A stretch of 64,000 nt of DNA, from the NCBI GenBank assembly GCA_017302015.1, contig JAFLEE010000018.1, positions 1 to 64,000 of the forward strand, in the 5' to 3' direction. The translations under genes were made by a program, and so were the position numbers. Below are positions 25,410-53,195 of this stretch, one piece after another; positions within the stretch are counted from its first letter, which is position 1, and each line of letters starts with the position of its first letter. This DNA comes from Spirochaetota bacterium (GTDB lineage: Bacteria; Spirochaetota; UBA12135; COTS27; JAFLEE01). The notes under the pieces were generated by a model. It was not told the DNA's origin. It ran no database searches and saw nothing but the letters and a program-made list of their open reading frames with translations.

Positions 25410-25536
25410 CTTATTTCTATAAGCGCGATAATTGCCGGATTCGCAAGCGGAGGAGGTGAATCGATGCGTCGTCACCCGTTGAAAGCGGTTTCTGCCTGGC
25501 GATTCCGGCAAATGGGGAGAAGTTAAACAGGCTCCT
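25396..25536. mobile_element. 141-bp MITE-like palindromic element
   Basis: AGGAGCCTGTGTGACTT (25396-25412) and AAGTTAAACAGGCTCCT (25520-25536) are inverted repeats matching at 15 of 17 positions. Inside, AATTGCCGGATTCGC (25430-25444) and GCGATTCCGGCAAAT (25499-25513) form a second inverted pair matching at 13 of 15. The whole element could fold into one hairpin; it encodes no protein and carries stop codons used by both flanking convergent genes. This is the layout of a MITE mobilised by an IS elsewhere. No clear target duplication was found, so a structured shared 3' end is the alternative. Confidence 0.55.
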
Positions 25537-27073
25537 AGCGCGAATCCAGGGGCGTGAGGGAATCGGCGGCGCGCACGACCTCGACGATCTCCTTGGCCGT
25601 TTCGGCGTCGGTGAAGCCGGCGGAGAGCACGTCGCTGGTGAAGAGCATGGAGATGCGCGCCAAGGCGCGTAGCTGCTCCCGGGGGTTCTCCTTCGGCGTG
25701 AGGATGAGGAAGACGTGGCGCACGGGCTTGCCATCGGCGGCGTGGAGGTCGAGCCCCTCGCGCAGGCGGGCGTAGGCGATGCGCGTCTGGGCCAGGCCCT
25801 CGAGGCGCGCGTGGGGCAGGGCGAGGCCCGAGCCGGCCGTGGTGAAGCGTTCCCGCTCATACTGCATGACCCGGTCGAGGATCTTGGCCCTCGGGGGGCG
25901 GGGGACCTTCAGGGCGAGGCGCTCCACGAGGGCGGCGACCACTTCCTCCATCCCGGAGGCCTCGAGGTTGAGCAGGAGGTCGTCTTGGGCCAGGTGATCG
26001 GCGAGGCGCCAGGTATGGCCGACCTCGAACTCGTCGACGATCTCGCCCACGAGTTCCTCAAGCACGTCCTCGAAGGTGACGATGCCGATGGGCTTGCCGC
26101 CATCCTCGACCACCTGGGCCATATTGGTGGAGAGTCGCTGGATGGTGGGCAGGAGGTCGGAGAGGTTCAAGCTGGCCGCGACCTGCGGCAGGTGGCGCAG
26201 GGATTTGTCGAGGTCGATGGGCGCTCCGTCGCGCATTTGGCCGAGGAGGAGTTCCTTCAGGTAGACGTAACCTACGGGCTTTCGCGGATTGCCGTCGCAG
26301 ACGGGGTAGCGGCTATGCTGGCGCTCGAGGATCACCGCGCGGTTGGCCTCCCACGGCTGCTTGAGGTCGAGCATGGCCACCCGCTCGAGGGGCACCATGA
26401 TGGACTTGGCGGTGTAATCCCCCAGGTCGAGCACATTCTCGCACAGGAGCACCTTGGCCAGGCTCATCTTCCCCTCGGAATGGGACTGGCTGAGCACGAG
26501 GCGCAGCTCCTCCTTGGAGAAGACCGGCTCGGATTCGGTCACGGCGGACACGCCGAGGAGCCGCAGGATCGCGTTGGAGAGGGAATTGAGCGCCATGAGC
26601 GGGCCCCACAGGAGCAGGTAGGCCCCCTGCATCACGGGCGCCGCGGCGCGCAGCGAGGTTTCGGCCCGGGCGATGGCCAGGTACTTGGGCACCTGCTCGC
26701 CGAGGACGATGTGGAGCCCCGTGATGAGGGTGAAGGCCGCGGCGAGGGAGACCGAGTGGCGCAGGGCGGGGGAGAGGGCGCCGAAGGATTCGAAGAGCGG
26801 GGAGAAGAGTTGGGCGAAGGCGGATTCCCCGACCCAGCCGAGGGCCAGGCTCGCCATCGTGATTCCCAATTGGGAGGCTGCCAGGTAGCGGTCCATGCGG
26901 CGGTGCATGGAGAGCGCGAGGGCGGCGGAGCGGGCCTTGGCGCGCTCCTGGATCTCGAGTTGGGTCTTTCGGGCGCGCACCAAGGCGAACTCGAAGAGCA
27001 CGAAGAACGCGTTGGCCCCCACCAGGAGGATCGCGGCGAGGCATTTGAGGAGGATGGCGGAGGAAGCTGACAT
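25535..27073 (-). CDS. CorC/HlyC-type CNNM exporter with C-terminal EIIA domain
   Basis: A 512-aa membrane protein. Residues about 1-200 are a DUF21/CNNM transmembrane domain with four hydrophobic stretches (FEFALVRARKTQLE, then LHIVLGEQVPKYLA). Two CBS domains follow (about 210-330). The last 145 residues are a PTS EIIA type 2 domain with a phosphorylatable-looking histidine H421 in GLALPHARLEG. CNNM/CorC proteins export Mg2+ or Co2+; EIIA fusion suggests control by phosphorylation or use of the fold as a sensor. No other PTS gene is present. It ends inside a MITE-like repeat, converging on the AraC gene. No strong promoter was found. Confidence 0.85.
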   Translation of the reverse strand: MSASSAILLKCLAAILLVGANAFFVLFEFALVRARKTQLEIQERAKARSAALALSMHRRMDRYLAASQLGITMASLALGWVGESAFAQLFSPLFESFGALSPALRHSVSLAAAFTLITGLHIVLGEQVPKYLAIARAETSLRAAAPVMQGAYLLLWGPLMALNSLSNAILRLLGVSAVTESEPVFSKEELRLVLSQSHSEGKMSLAKVLLCENVLDLGDYTAKSIMVPLERVAMLDLKQPWEANRAVILERQHSRYPVCDGNPRKPVGYVYLKELLLGQMRDGAPIDLDKSLRHLPQVAASLNLSDLLPTIQRLSTNMAQVVEDGGKPIGIVTFEDVLEELVGEIVDEFEVGHTWRLADHLAQDDLLLNLEASGMEEVVAALVERLALKVPRPPRAKILDRVMQYERERFTTAGSGLALPHARLEGLAQTRIAYARLREGLDLHAADGKPVRHVFLILTPKENPREQLRALARISMLFTSDVLSAGFTDAETAKEIVEVVRAADSLTPLDSR

Positions 27074-44918: not shown

Positions 44919-45719
44919 TTAGCGGAACAAGGAGGGGTGCGCCATCTCCGCGCCCACGCCCAGGCGAACGGATACGCCCGCCGTGAACGCCACATAGTCG
45001 CGATTGGCATATTTCGAGGGGATCGCGAGTTCCAGCCGGGGGATGATGGAGAGGGTGCGGCTGGACCGCAGGTCGGCTTCCGCGCGCAGGAGGACATCGT
45101 TGGGGAGCAGGGTGCCGATGAGGAGGCGCTCGCCGCCCTTGAGGAAGCCCTGGGAACCCGCATAGGCGGCGGTGAAGTGGAGGGGAACTTTCCCGCCCGC
45201 GACGGGGTCCCAGCGGAGGTCGAACACCCAATACAACCCGCTCTGCAGCGGGGTCAAGTCGAAATAGAAATGGAGGCCCGGTTTTACGGTGGCGCAGGGG
45301 AGCGTGAGGAGCAGGAAGGGCTCGATCCCATCGGCCCCGTAGGAGCCGGGCTTGGCCATGAGGTTCCTCGTATAAGTAAAACCCGAGAGGACCTCGAGGC
45401 GCTCCCCCGCCGTTAGGAGGAGGTCGACGAAGAGGCGGCTTCGGGACTCGTCGGCCATTTCGCTGTGGAATTTTTGGTTCCGGCCGGTGAGGGCGAAGAA
45501 GAGATCGGATTCGATCGCGAGGGAGAAGCGCGGGATCGGCCGCCAACGTTCGGTATAGAACACGTGGACGAGGAGTTCGTTCTGGGTGGTCGGTTGGATG
45601 CCGCGCCAAAGGCGTCCCCAGGCGAGTTCCACCCCCCCGTCGAAGCCGAGGGCGACCGGCTTCTCATCGGGAAAGGCCAGGGCGGCGAAGAGGAGCCCGA
45701 CAAGTGCGGCGCGTGTCAT
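44919..45719 (-). CDS. Predicted outer-membrane beta-barrel protein
   Basis: A 266-aa exported protein with a signal peptide (MTRAALVGLLFAALAFP) and alternating hydrophobic/polar strands ending in aromatic residues (GLHFYFDLTPL; YVAFTAGVSVRLGVG), as in outer-membrane barrels of the DUF-type. No known family recognised. ATG 45719 overlaps the upstream lipoprotein-like gene's TGA (ATGA), so it is the last gene of the four-gene minus-strand operon with the WD40-caspase. GTG 45728 is an alternative start. It could anchor or secrete a product of the operon; that is inference. Confidence 0.6.
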   Translation of the reverse strand: MTRAALVGLLFAALAFPDEKPVALGFDGGVELAWGRLWRGIQPTTQNELLVHVFYTERWRPIPRFSLAIESDLFFALTGRNQKFHSEMADESRSRLFVDLLLTAGERLEVLSGFTYTRNLMAKPGSYGADGIEPFLLLTLPCATVKPGLHFYFDLTPLQSGLYWVFDLRWDPVAGGKVPLHFTAAYAGSQGFLKGGERLLIGTLLPNDVLLRAEADLRSSRTLSIIPRLELAIPSKYANRDYVAFTAGVSVRLGVGAEMAHPSLFR

Positions 45720-46735
45720 TCGTACCACGCCTCATGGTCGAAGCCGTCGCGGTTGGTGCCCGGAGCGCCGAGTTTCAGGACCCGCAATTTCTCGACGGGG
45801 AATAGATTGAGGTCGAATCGGTGCGTACGGGAATCGTAGGCGGGGAGGCCTGAGTAGGGATCCGTAGAGAAACTCCGGCGGTTGATGAATTGGATGGATA
45901 GCGCCCCGGTATCGCAGACGTAGCCCCCGTACTCTTGCAGGGCGCGGAAGAGGGCCATGCGGGTCGAATCCAGCCCCAGGGCGCCCAGGTCGAGGGAAGG
46001 ATCCAATTGGAGGAGCGCTCCCATGGGGAGGGCATCGGCGGCGTCGATGCGTCCATCGGTATAGCTCGCCGGGGAGACCGGACCGGATTTCCGGATGCTC
46101 GGCACGCTCAGGGCGAGGGCGTGGGGGATGCGCCCCGCCTGTAATTCCTGGGGCCAGACCACCCCGGCCAGGAGCGAGAACCCCGAGGCCCGGGCGCTGA
46201 TGTACGGATTCACGCCGTCGCCCGAGAGGTCGAAGAGGGCGGCGTTGCCGCAGGCCCATTCCCCGCGGACGTTCACGAGCCGCCAAAACTCGAAGGAAAG
46301 GCCGCTTGAGACATCGATGAGGGCGAGATGGCTATCGGTGCCGCCATTGGGGAGGGCCCAGTCGGGGAGGGGCACCGACTTCACCCCGCGACGGCGGTCG
46401 CCCTGGTTTCGAATGGGGAGGAACCGCCTCGCGGTGGAGGCTTCCGCATAATACACGGCCACCCCGTCGTTCTCGGTTTCGGCGTAGGGGCTATCCGGCG
46501 CCCGTTCCGCGACGAGCCGGGCGACGTAGGCCGATGAATCGGGATCCACCGGGGCGCCTGCGGGTATCCTGCGGGCCCACGGCGCGTTCGTCGGGAAGGC
46601 GAAGACGGGCACCTCGCCGATCGCCTTGGGGTTTGCGGGGGGCTCGAAAACGGAGCAGGAAAGGGGGATTAGCAGGAGCGCACAGAGCGTGGCGGGCGGC
46701 GAAAATCGTTTGAGGTCTTGGAGGGGATATCGCAT
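45716..46735 (-). CDS. Secreted lipoprotein-like protein of unknown function
   Basis: A 339-aa exported protein. The N-terminus has a hydrophobic stretch ending in IPLSC, a possible lipobox giving a lipid-anchored Cys. The mature part contains conserved-looking motifs (PVDPDSSAYVARLV; NDGVAVYYAEAST; LFDLSGDGVNPYISARASGF; AGRIPHALALSVP; ALQEYGGYVCDTGAL) of a family I have seen in secreted proteins of soil actinobacteria, with no assigned activity. It overlaps the barrel gene by 4 nt and follows the DUF4384 gene by 60 nt. Role in the operon unknown; perhaps a periplasmic or surface enzyme or receptor. Confidence 0.6.
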   Translation of the reverse strand: MRYPLQDLKRFSPPATLCALLLIPLSCSVFEPPANPKAIGEVPVFAFPTNAPWARRIPAGAPVDPDSSAYVARLVAERAPDSPYAETENDGVAVYYAEASTARRFLPIRNQGDRRRGVKSVPLPDWALPNGGTDSHLALIDVSSGLSFEFWRLVNVRGEWACGNAALFDLSGDGVNPYISARASGFSLLAGVVWPQELQAGRIPHALALSVPSIRKSGPVSPASYTDGRIDAADALPMGALLQLDPSLDLGALGLDSTRMALFRALQEYGGYVCDTGALSIQFINRRSFSTDPYSGLPAYDSRTHRFDLNLFPVEKLRVLKLGAPGTNRDGFDHEAWYE

Positions 46736-46795
46736 GCGGACAGAGGAATGAACGGGGGCGAGGTTAACATGCCCGAAGCGCCTGCGCCCGCTGGT

Positions 46796-47758
46796 TCAGG
46801 GTTCCACGTCGATCTCGATGACCTGGCTCTTCCACGCGGCGGCCTTCAACCCGGTGGCGGTGATCTTGAGCCCCCGCGTGGCCAGGAGGCGCTCGCTTTC
46901 TTTCACCGTGCGGAAGCCCTCGCCCTCGAGTTTGACCCGGTCGAGCCAGGGGACCTTGGCTTCGGTGAAGAACGCCACCACGGTATCGCGCCCGATGGGC
47001 TCGCTGACGGTGATCTCAAAGGTATCTTTCGCGCCGGGGATGGCATAGGCCACGCCCGCGGCCACTTTATGGTCGGGGGTCAGGTCGTTGGGGTAGAGCA
47101 CCACCACGTCGCCCGAGGGCTGCAGGTCGACGAGGGTGATGAAGCCGTCGCGGCTGGATTTGAAGGAGAAGACCAGGGTGTCGCCGAGGCGCGCCTTGCC
47201 CTCTTTCGCGGAGGTGATCGTGTCGAGGCGGCCCCCGCCCTTGGCGCGGCGTTGGACGGAGAACTCGAGGCGGATGTCGGGATTGTCGTTGCGCATCGAT
47301 TTGAGGTTCTCCCGGGCGAGGAAGGTCTCCACCCCCGAGGCGAGTTTCGCCGAGAGTTTCTCGGCATCCCCGGGGGCCACGGAGGCGGTGGCGATGAGGC
47401 GGGAACTCTGGATGTGGAGGATGCGTGCCGTGAGGGCGGTCTTGGAGGCGGTGGCGACGAGGAGCGCCTGCACCCCCTGCATCTCGCCCGACTTCACGGC
47501 GGTGGCCGGGTTGACGAAGCCGGATTCGGAGAGGGCCACCTCTTTGAGGAGTTCCTTCGTCTTGGAGCGGTCGACGAGCAGGAGGAACTTGAAGCGCCCG
47601 AGTTGGGCCGCGAGGTCGGAGGTGAGCCCCTCGTTCGCGCTCCCCGGGCGGCCCTCTTCCGCCACCGGCGCCAAGGCGAGGCGCAGGACATCCTGGGCCG
47701 CGAGGGCCGGGGCGATGAGGGCGAGGGCGAAGAATATTCGGCGGGCCAGATCGTTCAT
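46796..47758 (-). CDS. CsgG-like/DUF4384 protein
   Basis: A 320-aa exported protein. After the signal peptide (about 1-21) comes a CsgG-like domain (LLLVDRSKTKELLKEVALSE; SGEMQGVQALLVATASK), and the C-terminal half is DUF4384 (GFITLVDLQPSGDVVVLYPN; VAAGVAYAIPGA; GRDTVVAFFTEA). DUF4384 often accompanies or is fused to caspase-like proteins; here the WD40-caspase gene lies 46 nt upstream. A TACGAT box 7 nt before the ATG suggests an additional leaderless transcript. It may couple protease state to the envelope; mechanism unknown. Confidence 0.78.
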   Translation of the reverse strand: MNDLARRIFFALALIAPALAAQDVLRLALAPVAEEGRPGSANEGLTSDLAAQLGRFKFLLLVDRSKTKELLKEVALSESGFVNPATAVKSGEMQGVQALLVATASKTALTARILHIQSSRLIATASVAPGDAEKLSAKLASGVETFLARENLKSMRNDNPDIRLEFSVQRRAKGGGRLDTITSAKEGKARLGDTLVFSFKSSRDGFITLVDLQPSGDVVVLYPNDLTPDHKVAAGVAYAIPGAKDTFEITVSEPIGRDTVVAFFTEAKVPWLDRVKLEGEGFRTVKESERLLATRGLKITATGLKAAAWKSQVIEIDVEP

Positions 47759-47765
47759 GGGGGCA

Positions 47766-47771
47766 ATCGTA
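47766..47771 (-). promoter_or_regulatory. -10 box of the DUF4384 gene
   Basis: TACGAT on the minus strand ends 7 nt before the ATG at 47758. No -35 box at proper distance was seen. It could give a separate leaderless transcript within the operon. Confidence 0.3.
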
Positions 47772-47804
47772 TCACGAATGCGTCGGGGAGCCGCGACAAT
47801 GGCC

Positions 47805-50672
47805 CTATTTGCCGACCACGGGGAAGTCGGGCACCGTGGCCGGGATGGCCGTGGCGGGGGTTTGCTTGCGCCCCGGGAGTTCCTTCACGCGCTTGGAGAG
47901 GTACCAATTGACGCCGAAGACCGTGATGGCGCCGGTGTCATCCCAGCCCGGCGCCCCGCCGAGGGCCTCGACGAGGGCCTTGGTGAAGGCGCCGTTGGCC
48001 CAGGCCGAATCTTCGAAGGCGAATTGCCGGCCGGTGGCGGAGGTGAAGACGATGGCGCCGTTCTCGGCGGAGGCGAGTTCGTTGACGAGGCCGTCGGTGC
48101 CGCTGCGGTCGCCCAGCACGTTCCCCGATTGGCAGCTATCGATGAAGAAAAGCGCGCGGCCGGCGATGGAGGAGACCGCCTTGCGGATCACGGCGAAGCC
48201 CAGGCAGGTCTTCTCCAGGCGCTCGGGGTCTGCGTCGACGGGAAGGAACCAGAATTTGCCAGTGGGATCGCTCACCCCGTGCCCCGCCAGGAAGACCATG
48301 GCGGTATCGTCGGCCTTCGTCTGGCCGCGGATCCATTCGAGGCCGGCCTCGCAGGCGGCGCGCGTGCCCTCGGCATCGGTGAGCAGGCGCTCGTTCACCT
48401 CGCGGTAGAGCTTCCCCTTCTGGGCCCGGATGATGGCCGTGAAATCCCGGGCGTCCTTGGCCGCGTACTTGAGGCGCAGCGACGGCTCGCGGTACTCGCT
48501 CACGCCGATGGCGAGGACGAAGAGGCGGGGTTTGGGGGGCGCGTTCGAACTCCCCGCCCACCTCAGGCGCACCGAGGCGGCCGCTCCGGCGCCATGGGCG
48601 TTCTCGCCGAAGGCCGAGACGACGACATCGCGCTCGGGCAGTTCGAGGTCGAGGCTGCGTTCGTCGGGGGCCTCGGGCTTCGCGCGGATCGAAAGCCCCC
48701 GGGAGCCGGAGAGCGGCCGCCCATCCACCAGGATCTTCACTCCCGTGATCGGTTCTCCCCCGGGGGAGCGCACCCGCACGCGGAGTTTTTGGGAAGTTGT
48801 AGAGAAGGCGTCCGAATCGGTCGGAGATAGGATGGTGAGCACGGGGGGAAGTCGCCCCTCGATGGGAGCGGCCACGGGGCGATCGCCCACGGCCTTGGGT
48901 TGCGCGTCGCCCTCCCAAGTCTTTACGACCGCATCGATCCAATCGGGGCGGAAGCGGCCGTCGCGGAAGCGCCCGATGGGGAAGAAATCCGCGGCGTCGC
49001 GGGGGCCGCGGTTGACGTGCCATCCCAGGAGGTCTTCGGCGCCCGCCGCGGCGTCGTAGTACCCCTTCGGCGTCCACAGAATCCAGCGGGAGCGGTCGGC
49101 GTGGGGGAAGAGTGCCAGCACTTCGGTGCCGCTATCCATGCGGAACCAACGGATCGTACCGTCGGCGAAGGCGGCCACGGCCGTCCTCCCGTCAGGGCTC
49201 ACGTCCACGCACCAGGCGAGGGCCGGAGCGCTTCGCTGCCAGCGAAGGGCCCCATCTGCGCCATAGGCCCTGAGTTTGAAGGAGGTGCCGAGGATGAAGG
49301 CGGAAAGATCGCCCGTCGCCGCCGCGCAGGTCGAATGCTCGCCCACGTCGAGGGGGATGGCCTTCCCGGAAAGGGTCGGGGAAGGGGAGTTTCGCCAGGA
49401 TGCGAGGGGGAGCCCCTGGAGCCGGGCGGGGCGTAGTTCGGGGGGGACCTCCGGGAGATAGGCGCGCCGGGCGAGGGAGAACGCCACGAGGGGTCCGCGG
49501 CTCTCGAAGGCGAAGGCCACGACAGACCCGTCGGTTGAGAGGGCGAACCGGTCGTGGTTCTCGTCGTTGATGGCCATGGGCGGCTTGCGCGACCAAAGGA
49601 TTTTCCCAGCGGAGTCGACGCGACCGAGCGCGGGATCGCAGGAAGCGAAGGCAAGACCGCCTGGGAGGGCGAGGAGCGAGGTGACCGTATCTTCGCAAAG
49701 GGCCGTGTCGACGGCGGCGCCGTAGGCGGGTGGCGCGAATCGCCTCAGAAGATTGCCGCGCTCGCGGGGCCACCCCGATGCCCAGAGGGATCCATCCCCG
49801 CCGAAGGCGACCACGGAAAGATTGCCCGCCCGAAGCATCGGCTCGGCGATGGGAAGGGGCGTCGGCGCCCCGGCAAATTTCCAGAGATCGAGCTTGTTCT
49901 GGTCGTTGAAACCCACGGCCATGCGCGACCCGTCGGCGGCGAAGGCCACGCCGAACGGTGCGCGGCCGCCGCGGGGGGCGAGGGTCTCGAGCAGGATGAG
50001 CCCATCGTCACCAACTTTGAAGAGGCGGATGGAGCCGTCGAAGCCCGTGGCGGCGAGGAGCGTGGTCGAAGTTCCCGCGCCCGGGATCTGGTAGAAGGCG
50101 GCGCCGTAGGACGGGGCCGCGAAACGCCCATCGGCGTCGGGGGGCAGGGCGACGTAGCCGTCGCCGCGGCGCGTGAACACGCGCACCCCGTTCTTCCCCA
50201 AGAGCGAGGCCGCGAGGAAGCGGCCATCGGCGCTGAGGGCGAGGTGCTGCACCACATCGGGGAGCTCGCCGAAGGCCTCCACCAAGTCGCCCGTCTCCCG
50301 GTCGAAGCGGTCGATCTGAACGCGGCCGCTGGTCTCGTAGCCGGTATAGCCCGCCGCGAGGACCCAGCGCCCCTCGGGGGTCATGGCCACGGCGTGGAGG
50401 CGTCCCTCGCCACCCGCTGCGATGGGGGGCCGAAGCACGCGAAGGAGGCGCCCGCTCGCCGCGTCCCAGATGCGGGCGGTCTTGTCGTGGGAGGCCGTGG
50501 CGAGGAAGCGCCCCCGTGCGTCGCCGGCCACTTGGTTGATGCGGGCCGTATGCATGCCGGCCTCGAGTCGCAAGACGGGCTCGCGGGAAAGTTCGGCTGG
50601 ATGCAGGCACCGGACGGAGAGGCCCAGGAGCAGCGCGAGGAGGGGGAGGGGATGCGGGGCGGTCTTATTCAT
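47805..50672 (-). CDS. Exported WD40-caspase (peptidase C14-like)
   Basis: A 955-aa exported protein. A signal peptide (about 1-27) is followed by WD40-type repeats (ARGRFLATASHDKTARIWDA and further blades to about 510), a beta-rich linker (about 590-690), then a caspase-like fold from about 705 (LFVLAIGVSEYREPSL). The catalytic dyad is intact: H798 in FLAGHGVSD and C847 in FFIDSCQSG. Such proteases cut after basic or acidic residues depending on family. It is the first gene of the operon with the DUF4384 protein, a lipoprotein and a barrel. A TATAAT lies at 50706-50711 on this strand, 33 nt before the ATG. Confidence 0.85.
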   Translation of the reverse strand: MNKTAPHPLPLLALLLGLSVRCLHPAELSREPVLRLEAGMHTARINQVAGDARGRFLATASHDKTARIWDAASGRLLRVLRPPIAAGGEGRLHAVAMTPEGRWVLAAGYTGYETSGRVQIDRFDRETGDLVEAFGELPDVVQHLALSADGRFLAASLLGKNGVRVFTRRGDGYVALPPDADGRFAAPSYGAAFYQIPGAGTSTTLLAATGFDGSIRLFKVGDDGLILLETLAPRGGRAPFGVAFAADGSRMAVGFNDQNKLDLWKFAGAPTPLPIAEPMLRAGNLSVVAFGGDGSLWASGWPRERGNLLRRFAPPAYGAAVDTALCEDTVTSLLALPGGLAFASCDPALGRVDSAGKILWSRKPPMAINDENHDRFALSTDGSVVAFAFESRGPLVAFSLARRAYLPEVPPELRPARLQGLPLASWRNSPSPTLSGKAIPLDVGEHSTCAAATGDLSAFILGTSFKLRAYGADGALRWQRSAPALAWCVDVSPDGRTAVAAFADGTIRWFRMDSGTEVLALFPHADRSRWILWTPKGYYDAAAGAEDLLGWHVNRGPRDAADFFPIGRFRDGRFRPDWIDAVVKTWEGDAQPKAVGDRPVAAPIEGRLPPVLTILSPTDSDAFSTTSQKLRVRVRSPGGEPITGVKILVDGRPLSGSRGLSIRAKPEAPDERSLDLELPERDVVVSAFGENAHGAGAAASVRLRWAGSSNAPPKPRLFVLAIGVSEYREPSLRLKYAAKDARDFTAIIRAQKGKLYREVNERLLTDAEGTRAACEAGLEWIRGQTKADDTAMVFLAGHGVSDPTGKFWFLPVDADPERLEKTCLGFAVIRKAVSSIAGRALFFIDSCQSGNVLGDRSGTDGLVNELASAENGAIVFTSATGRQFAFEDSAWANGAFTKALVEALGGAPGWDDTGAITVFGVNWYLSKRVKELPGRKQTPATAIPATVPDFPVVGK

Positions 50673-50705
50673 GGTCCTTCCGTCGCGGAGGCGGTCCGCG
50701 GGAGA

Positions 50706-50711
50706 ATTATA
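50706..50711 (-). promoter_or_regulatory. -10 box of the WD40-caspase operon
   Basis: Perfect TATAAT on the minus strand, 33 nt before the caspase ATG. The -35 region (CCGACC at 17 bp) is poor. Confidence 0.4.
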
Positions 50712-50788
50712 GCCCAGAAGGAGGGGTGGGTCGGGGGCGGCGGTCCTCCTTTCGGCCGGCGTAAGGGAATAGCCTCCGCGGGCCCCGA

Positions 50789-51995: not shown

Positions 51996-53195
51996 ATGCC
52001 CCCCCGCCGATCCGCCCCCCCTTCCCAGCCGAAAGGCGCCTTTCCCGGCGCGGGCGAACTCCCCTTGCCCGAACGCCTGGTCTTGGGGGAGATCCTCTCC
52101 CCCGGCCTCGACGCCGGCGCGCGGCTTGCGCCCATGCGGGGCTTGGCGGCGAAGTACGGCGTCACCTACCTCACGCTTTCCCGGGCCGTGGCGAAATTAT
52201 CCAAGGCGGGGGTCGTGAAGACCGAGGGCCGCCACGGCATGTTCGTGCAGTCCCTTACCTGTGCCGTGCGGCATTGCGGCCGTCGACCCGTGGTGGCCCT
52301 CGTCACCCTCACGGGCGATTACCATATCCGTCCCCTCGTCGCCGAACTCGCGGGCGCCCTCCATGGCGAAGGCCTCCAGACCGTGGAGCACCTCATCCGC
52401 CACGGGGGAGCGGACCAGACCGGCGCCCTGCGCGATTTCGTGGAGCGTTGGCGGCCCTGCGCCCTCGTGGCGCGCCTGCCCAACGACTATCCCCACCTCG
52501 CCTATTTCAGCGAACTCTACGACCGCCAGCGCCTCCCGGTGGTCTTCATCGAGAATGAAGCGCCCTTCCCCGCGCCGCGCGTGCATGTGGGCGACCGCGA
52601 GGGGGGCCGCCTCGCCGCACGCCATCTCCTCGAACTCGGGCACCGCAAACTGGCCTGGTTCGGGGGAATCTTCGATCTCCACGATCCTTTGGATCCCGCC
52701 AGCCAAGTGCCCGAGGCCGCGCGCCGCGCTTCCCGGGAGCGGTATTCGGGGTTCCGCGACGGCCTCGCTGACAGGGGGATCGCCGAGGCGCCCGCCTCGG
52801 TGGGTTTGAGCATCTTCCACCCGGCCAGCCAGGCGCATGGCGTGGAGCGCATCCTCGATCTGGTGGACGGCGGGGTGACGGCCTTCGGTTGCTCCAGCGA
52901 CCTCGGGGCGGCTTGGTTCCGTGAACTCCTGCTGCACCATGGCATCGAGGTGCCGGCCCGCGTCTCCGTGGTGGGGTTCGACGCCGAAAGCGAGGCCGCC
53001 CCCGGGGTGCGCCTCACGAGCGTCGATCCGCGCACGGATGAAATCGTGCGCCAAGTCGTGGCCTGGGTGAGGGATGAATTGCATCGTCCCCAGAGCGCCC
53101 GCGGGGAAAGCCGCGTGATCACGCCCGCCCTCTTCGTCGGGGAAACCACCGTCGCCCCGCCGTCCGTCATCCGCCATCGAAACGAGAGGCATTGA
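51996..53195 (+). CDS. GntR/LacI chimeric transcriptional regulator
   Basis: A 399-aa regulator with a GntR-type winged helix (LAAKYGVTYLTLSRAVAKLS, then EGRHGMFVQ) after a proline-rich N-terminal stretch, and a LacI-like sugar-binding domain (VVALVTLTGDYHIRPLVAEL; RVSVVGFDAESEAAPGVRLT). It sits 31 nt before a large secreted GH5-like glycosidase, its probable target, the same layout as at 246-4449. The strong promoter with a start-site palindrome suggests autorepression. Ligand unknown. Confidence 0.9.
   Translation: MPPRRSAPPSQPKGAFPGAGELPLPERLVLGEILSPGLDAGARLAPMRGLAAKYGVTYLTLSRAVAKLSKAGVVKTEGRHGMFVQSLTCAVRHCGRRPVVALVTLTGDYHIRPLVAELAGALHGEGLQTVEHLIRHGGADQTGALRDFVERWRPCALVARLPNDYPHLAYFSELYDRQRLPVVFIENEAPFPAPRVHVGDREGGRLAARHLLELGHRKLAWFGGIFDLHDPLDPASQVPEAARRASRERYSGFRDGLADRGIAEAPASVGLSIFHPASQAHGVERILDLVDGGVTAFGCSSDLGAAWFRELLLHHGIEVPARVSVVGFDAESEAAPGVRLTSVDPRTDEIVRQVVAWVRDELHRPQSARGESRVITPALFVGETTVAPPSVIRHRNERH

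Follow-up and report, generated by a model that had tools for sequence, protein, structure and literature searches.

In bacteria, caspase homologues are for the most part described as enzymes of cell death or defence that work in the cytoplasm. Many metacaspases have already been suspected of carrying signal peptides, so that export of a caspase is in itself no novelty, and OmpA is listed in 14 metacaspase operons (Asplund-Samuelsson et al., PMC3501461). Moreover, of 473 cyanobacterial orthocaspases, 23 are reported to be fused to the uncharacterised domain DUF4384 (PMC8283722). Neither an exported WD40 orthocaspase nor a caspase-DUF4384 fusion is without precedent; no published account of a recurrent pairing of the two in trans was found in the literature searched, and it is this recurrent exported pairing that is the valuable part of the locus described here.

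Anatomy of the four-gene run

The window, that is, the whole stretch of 64,000 nucleotides that was analysed, belongs to a 5.4-Mb genome assembled in 165 contigs, probably that of a spirochaete: three FlaA matches, which 14 control genomes lack, and the composition of its set of relatives suggest Spirochaetota. The locus consists of four genes on the minus strand. The first codes for an exported WD40-orthocaspase of 955 amino acids (47805..50672) with Pfam WD40 and Peptidase_C14 matches above the cut-off, and is followed by the gene for an exported protein of 320 amino acids (46796..47758) that combines a CsgG/FlgO/LpoB/TolB-N-like domain with DUF4384. Downstream of these lie an open reading frame for a lipoprotein of 339 amino acids with a conserved Cys27, from an unnamed family (45716..46735), and a gene for a putative outer-membrane beta-barrel (44919..45728), predicted with low confidence to be nearly all-beta, of 269 amino acids when read from a GTG, or of 266 from an alternative ATG at 45719 that forms an ATGA overlap with the stop codon of the preceding gene. 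The preliminary description had reported four minus-strand frames separated by 46 nt, 60 nt and the 4-nt ATGA overlap, and had assigned signal peptides to all four proteins; the ORF coordinates bear out the former, and every one of the four proteins shows a signal sequence.

The 116-nt gap 5' of the caspase gene (50673..50788, no strand assigned) is the expected promoter site, although no sigma-70 consensus was found in it. The term operon is used here for the spacing only, since no terminator or promoter is evident above chance inside the run. The same four-gene set recurs in no other searched genome; conservation of the neighbourhood, which the preliminary description had proposed as a check, is not borne out. 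Scans for Rfam families and tRNAs across the window returned no matches. The window also encodes several glycoside hydrolase, esterase and CBM proteins; a 512-aa ORF that joins CNNM transmembrane, CBS and PTS EIIA domains in an unusual transporter/phosphotransferase fusion (25535-27073, minus strand); and a GntR-like helix-turn-helix fused to a LacI-type sugar-binding domain, adjoining a large secreted glycosidase-like protein (51996-53195, plus strand). The four genes most likely represent two modules, the caspase with the DUF4384 protein and the lipoprotein with the putative barrel, as judged from their distribution among genomes.

The exported caspase and its DUF4384 partner

The caspase is laid out as a signal peptide, a beta-propeller (residues ~30-530), a weak Ig-like region (~610-705) and a C14 domain (~716-930); in Pfam, WD40 scores 54.4 bits against a curated cut-off of 27, and Peptidase_C14 40.8 bits against 21.4. 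The catalytic dyad had been placed correctly at H798 and C847, and both residues are invariant in the 8 aligned homologues; DUF4384-linked caspases whose domain can be read keep the His and Cys as well. D740 and D845 are likewise invariant in these 8 sequences and, mapped by alignment and by comparison with metacaspases, are candidate acids of an S1 pocket for Arg or Lys, a putative pocket kept in all aligned relatives. Among solved structures, the top sequence match is the MALT1 paracaspase (E 2e-5), an Arg-specific C14 relative. The closest full-length relatives were found in 9 of 393 genomes, in a Nitrospirae MAG and in two Chromatiaceae; full-length relatives as a whole come from spirochaete genomes, the Nitrospirae MAG, Chromatiaceae and Azospirillum. 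Wherever the N-terminus of an aligned WD40-caspase can be read, it has a signal sequence, and in nearly all measured members the N-terminal hydrophobic segment exceeds the rest of the chain (2.36 against 1.91 elsewhere for the window protein); one relative (L046, on G070:C37) bears a lipobox-like Cys. The conservation of the export signal and of the dyad across phyla supports the earlier proposal that an apparently active caspase is exported.

The same conservation of export weighs against the reading of the protein as an anti-phage or cell-suicide caspase. That reading draws on a match to a generic PADLOC caspase profile (30 bits) and on a distant one to the EACC1-associated conflict caspase model of NCBIfam (NF047832), which reaches 84 bits and stays below its cut-off of 140; the neighbours, however, include no sensor NTPase, gasdermin or nuclease partner, and such a function is regarded as decidedly improbable.

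In the 320-aa protein, DUF4384 (PF14326) scores 70 bits against a curated cut-off of 27. The N-terminal domain matches CsgG with 15.4 bits, below the cut-off of 20.8 and over ~64 of 210 positions, whereas homologues in the same slot pass that cut-off and are also matched by the FlgO, LpoB and TolB-N models. The signal peptide of the protein is of type I and ends ALAA|Q, with no lipobox or lipidated N-terminal Cys; in the close homologues, a type I signal with A-Q or a similar end is followed by the CsgG/FlgO/LpoB/TolB-N-matched domain, a conserved linker and DUF4384. A search of PDB sequences returned no match. The protein had been described as CsgG-like and of outer-membrane assembly type: its tie to the caspase holds, while the assembly type is not supported, because the lipid-anchor Cys and a full CsgG family match are both missing. 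On the same grounds, a CsgG-type outer-membrane secretion channel with the caspase as an accessory protease was rejected as very improbable; the weak CsgG profile match and its clearer counterparts in homologues speak for it, but the homologues fit FlgO, LpoB and TolB-N as well, and the examined neighbours include no curli subunit or accessory genes.

The tie between the two proteins emerges from their neighbourhoods, read at 20 loci. Among the 384 genomes searched, 11 other full-length relatives of the DUF4384 protein were found (34-49% identity), four of which are encoded directly beside a WD40-caspase. The source genome has a single DUF4384 gene and five caspases, one of which the DUF4384 gene adjoins. 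In a set of 12 other spirochaete genomes chosen by the DUF4384 protein alone, caspases being disregarded, the gene lies beside a WD40-caspase in five (G081, G010, G033, G130 and G169), where 0.01 such cases would be expected (P about 3e-13 on the assumption of independence). The caspase is exported in each of the five, which represent four families, G010 and G033 being of the same genus; in G130, a small predicted ORF lies between the two genes. The gene is clearly apart from caspases in six of the 12 (G218, G070, G161, G022, G056 and G134). Outside family f7 and G379, each genome has one DUF4384 gene and one to three caspases. An additional pair, with a gap of 1-2 nt, is present in G013, a locus found via its caspase; in G201, a sixth genome of the set of 12, the DUF4384 gene is followed by a WD40 gene that the end of the contig truncates, and in G099 two of the four DUF4384 copies adjoin a caspase. 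An earlier co-occurrence count (7 of 9, P 6e-4) is supportive only. Eight close caspase relatives have no directly adjoining DUF4384 gene (two in G070, one each in G099, G178, G219, G379, G023 and at L049); in G161, the contig stops just past the caspase. The pairing is therefore recurrent and not obligatory, since other genomes with DUF4384 carry the gene elsewhere. The caspases of the five paired genomes form a WD40-caspase subfamily at a greater distance, with identities, where given, of about 24-31% across the matched part, indicating that the pairing either was in place before the group of close orthologs or came about more than once. A separate arrangement is seen in spirochaete family f7, which may be the Leptospiraceae: there an exported ankyrin-repeat gene immediately precedes that of the WD40-caspase (L072:6355-10370, L073:4553-8744, L044:6969-11041), and the caspase frame at L044 is broken in two close to the region of the catalytic cysteine.

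The association extends beyond spirochaetes, and its conservation across phyla sustains the link first proposed between the caspase and the CsgG-like/DUF4384 protein. In Halochromatium and Rhabdochromatium (Chromatiaceae, purple sulphur bacteria), the WD40-caspase gene is transcribed divergently from an operon that comprises an OmpA-TPR gene, a second caspase gene and a CsgG-DUF4384 gene; both domains of the CsgG-DUF4384 protein score above the cut-off, and the second, exported caspase has a weak DUF4384-like tail (15.8 bits, below the cut-off). On three Azospirillum plasmids, a glycine-zipper gene precedes the WD40-caspase gene, and an exported caspase-DUF4384 fusion is encoded near and divergent from the latter, with DUF4384 scores of 36 and 41 bits in the two that were scanned.

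In these three Azospirillum records the caspase stands directly upstream of tssL, and on a Pseudoroseomonas plasmid it lies near vgrG, an arrangement that could cast it as an accessory of type VI secretion. A VipB/TssC gene is absent, however, from the source genome (an incomplete assembly) and from 15 other tested genomes carrying the caspase or its partner, so the type VI context appears to be a local association: the link may hold in Alphaproteobacteria, and as an explanation of the window locus it is scarcely credible. The exported WD40-caspase lies together with a glycine-zipper gene in such type VI clusters on Azospirillum and Pseudoroseomonas plasmids (L138, L139, L144, L140).

The linker of the DUF4384 protein bears on the role of the protein within the pair. 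Its Arg residues, in the motif ARENLKxMRNDSPDI, are nearly invariant in 12 close homologues, and orthocaspases cut after basic residues (PMC6426788); the DUF4384 protein could accordingly be a caspase substrate, cut in this linker to free one domain as a signal. The motif is nonetheless missing from more distant paired homologues (L043, L050, L126, L129), and caspase-DUF4384 fusions suggest a regulatory domain instead. The substrate model is considered unlikely, and the protein is more probably a periplasmic adaptor or regulator.

The lipoprotein and putative barrel genes

A profile search detected strong lipoprotein relatives at six loci in five genomes, namely the window, another contig (C62) of the source genome and G037, G162, G146 and G344. 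In all six, the next gene on the same strand is a barrel homologue that touches, overlaps or lies a few bases off the lipoprotein gene. The second copy of the source genome (L040:1266-3123, G000 contig C62) encodes a lipoprotein 39-40% identical to that of the window, on a short contig with no caspase. The pair has no caspase nearby at any of the five loci outside the window, and it never lies beside the closest full-length caspase relatives (nine genomes, the Nitrospirae MAG and the two Chromatiaceae); the nine caspase-positive and ten lipoprotein-positive genomes share only the source genome. The lipoprotein/barrel module thus adjoins the caspase pair only in the source genome.

This distribution weakens the reading of the locus as one four-gene envelope system, in which the caspase processes the lipoprotein or barrel or controls export through them, as in the protease maturing surface proteins or controlling export that was originally put forward. 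The tight spacing on one strand and the export signals on all four proteins argue for such a system; yet the lipoprotein/barrel pair stands alone elsewhere, every other genome seen that has the caspase pair is without it, and among the searched genomes only this one carries both modules. The inclusion of the lipoprotein and barrel in the caspase system is therefore not supported, and a single four-gene system is considered quite improbable.

As for the proteins themselves, Cys27 of the lipoprotein follows a hydrophobic segment and is kept in six close relatives, with Pro at position -3 in the window protein where Leu is usual; D134, H136, E149, H205 and D275 are invariant in ten family members. 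Neither the lipoprotein nor the barrel matches Pfam, NCBIfam or PADLOC, and the lipoprotein matches no PDB sequence or fold (best fold E 0.62). The structure prediction suggested earlier for the 339-aa and 266-aa proteins gave a lipoprotein AlphaFold model from 10 sequences with pLDDT 76 and pTM 0.78 (two of the five models fair and three poor) and a low-confidence barrel model (mean pLDDT 55.6), nearly all-beta with long strands. The top Foldseek matches of the latter are SAM50, OmpF and TamA, all insignificant at E > 0.4. The barrel of the preliminary description is here a putative one, with no family match and a model of low confidence.

Another spirochaete family has distant relatives of the lipoprotein that carry no lipobox, as do plasmids of Actinomycetota and Alphaproteobacteria, and two distant matches to the lipoprotein profile (24-26% identity) lie on viral contigs. 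A Tsukamurella plasmid protein (L141:1214-3340) combines CBM60 and PA14 with a relative of the window lipoprotein as its C-terminal domain. The CBM60/PA14 fusion, together with D134, H136, E149 and H205, hints at a polysaccharide-acting domain in the family, and the module probably handles envelope polysaccharide, as suggested by this one distant domain fusion and the surroundings.

Proposed roles and comparison with known systems

The explanation towards which the evidence leans, at somewhat better than even chances, is that of two modules, an exported orthocaspase with a dedicated envelope DUF4384 partner and a separate lipoprotein/barrel pair. The caspase would cross the inner membrane and act in the periplasm, where its WD40 beta-propeller may bind envelope partners or substrates and the C14 domain may cleave after Arg or Lys. 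The exported DUF4384 protein would be its dedicated envelope partner, most likely as a regulator or adaptor and less likely as a substrate, whose CsgG/LpoB/TolB-N-like domain may dock to an envelope component while the DUF4384 domain contacts the caspase. The lipoprotein and putative outer-membrane barrel would form a separate conserved pair, here placed downstream and probably devoted to envelope polysaccharide. More tentatively, and with rather less than even chances, the caspase and the CsgG/LpoB/TolB-N-like DUF4384 protein might be a widespread periplasmic protease-sensor pair for envelope stress or maintenance, unrelated to cell death, with DUF4384 as a general caspase-regulating module acting in trans or fused.

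Against the prevailing view of cytoplasmic death and defence enzymes, a conserved exported pair would offer a concrete non-death role in the envelope. DUF4384 is marked out as a likely caspase partner, and the lipoprotein and barrel define an unnamed pair of envelope gene families.

In comparison with known systems, the window caspase shares with WD40 orthocaspases and prokaryotic metacaspases (PMC3501461, PMC8283722) the C14 His/Cys dyad and WD40, their commonest accessory domain, but differs in the position of the caspase domain, C-terminal to the propeller, in its conserved export signal and in the dedicated DUF4384 gene adjoining it. The caspase-DUF4384 fusions of cyanobacteria and Azospirillum, and more weakly of Chromatiaceae, likewise link the two domains, whereas the window has two separate exported proteins, with DUF4384 joined to a CsgG/LpoB-like domain. 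The N-terminal domain of the partner resembles the periplasmic CsgG/FlgO/LpoB/TolB-N domains, weakly in the window and better in homologues; unlike the CsgG group, the partner is not a full CsgG, has no lipobox and ends in DUF4384. Lastly, MALT1, the solved structure nearest to the window caspase in sequence, is a cytosolic human protein with death and Ig domains, whereas the window caspase carries a propeller.
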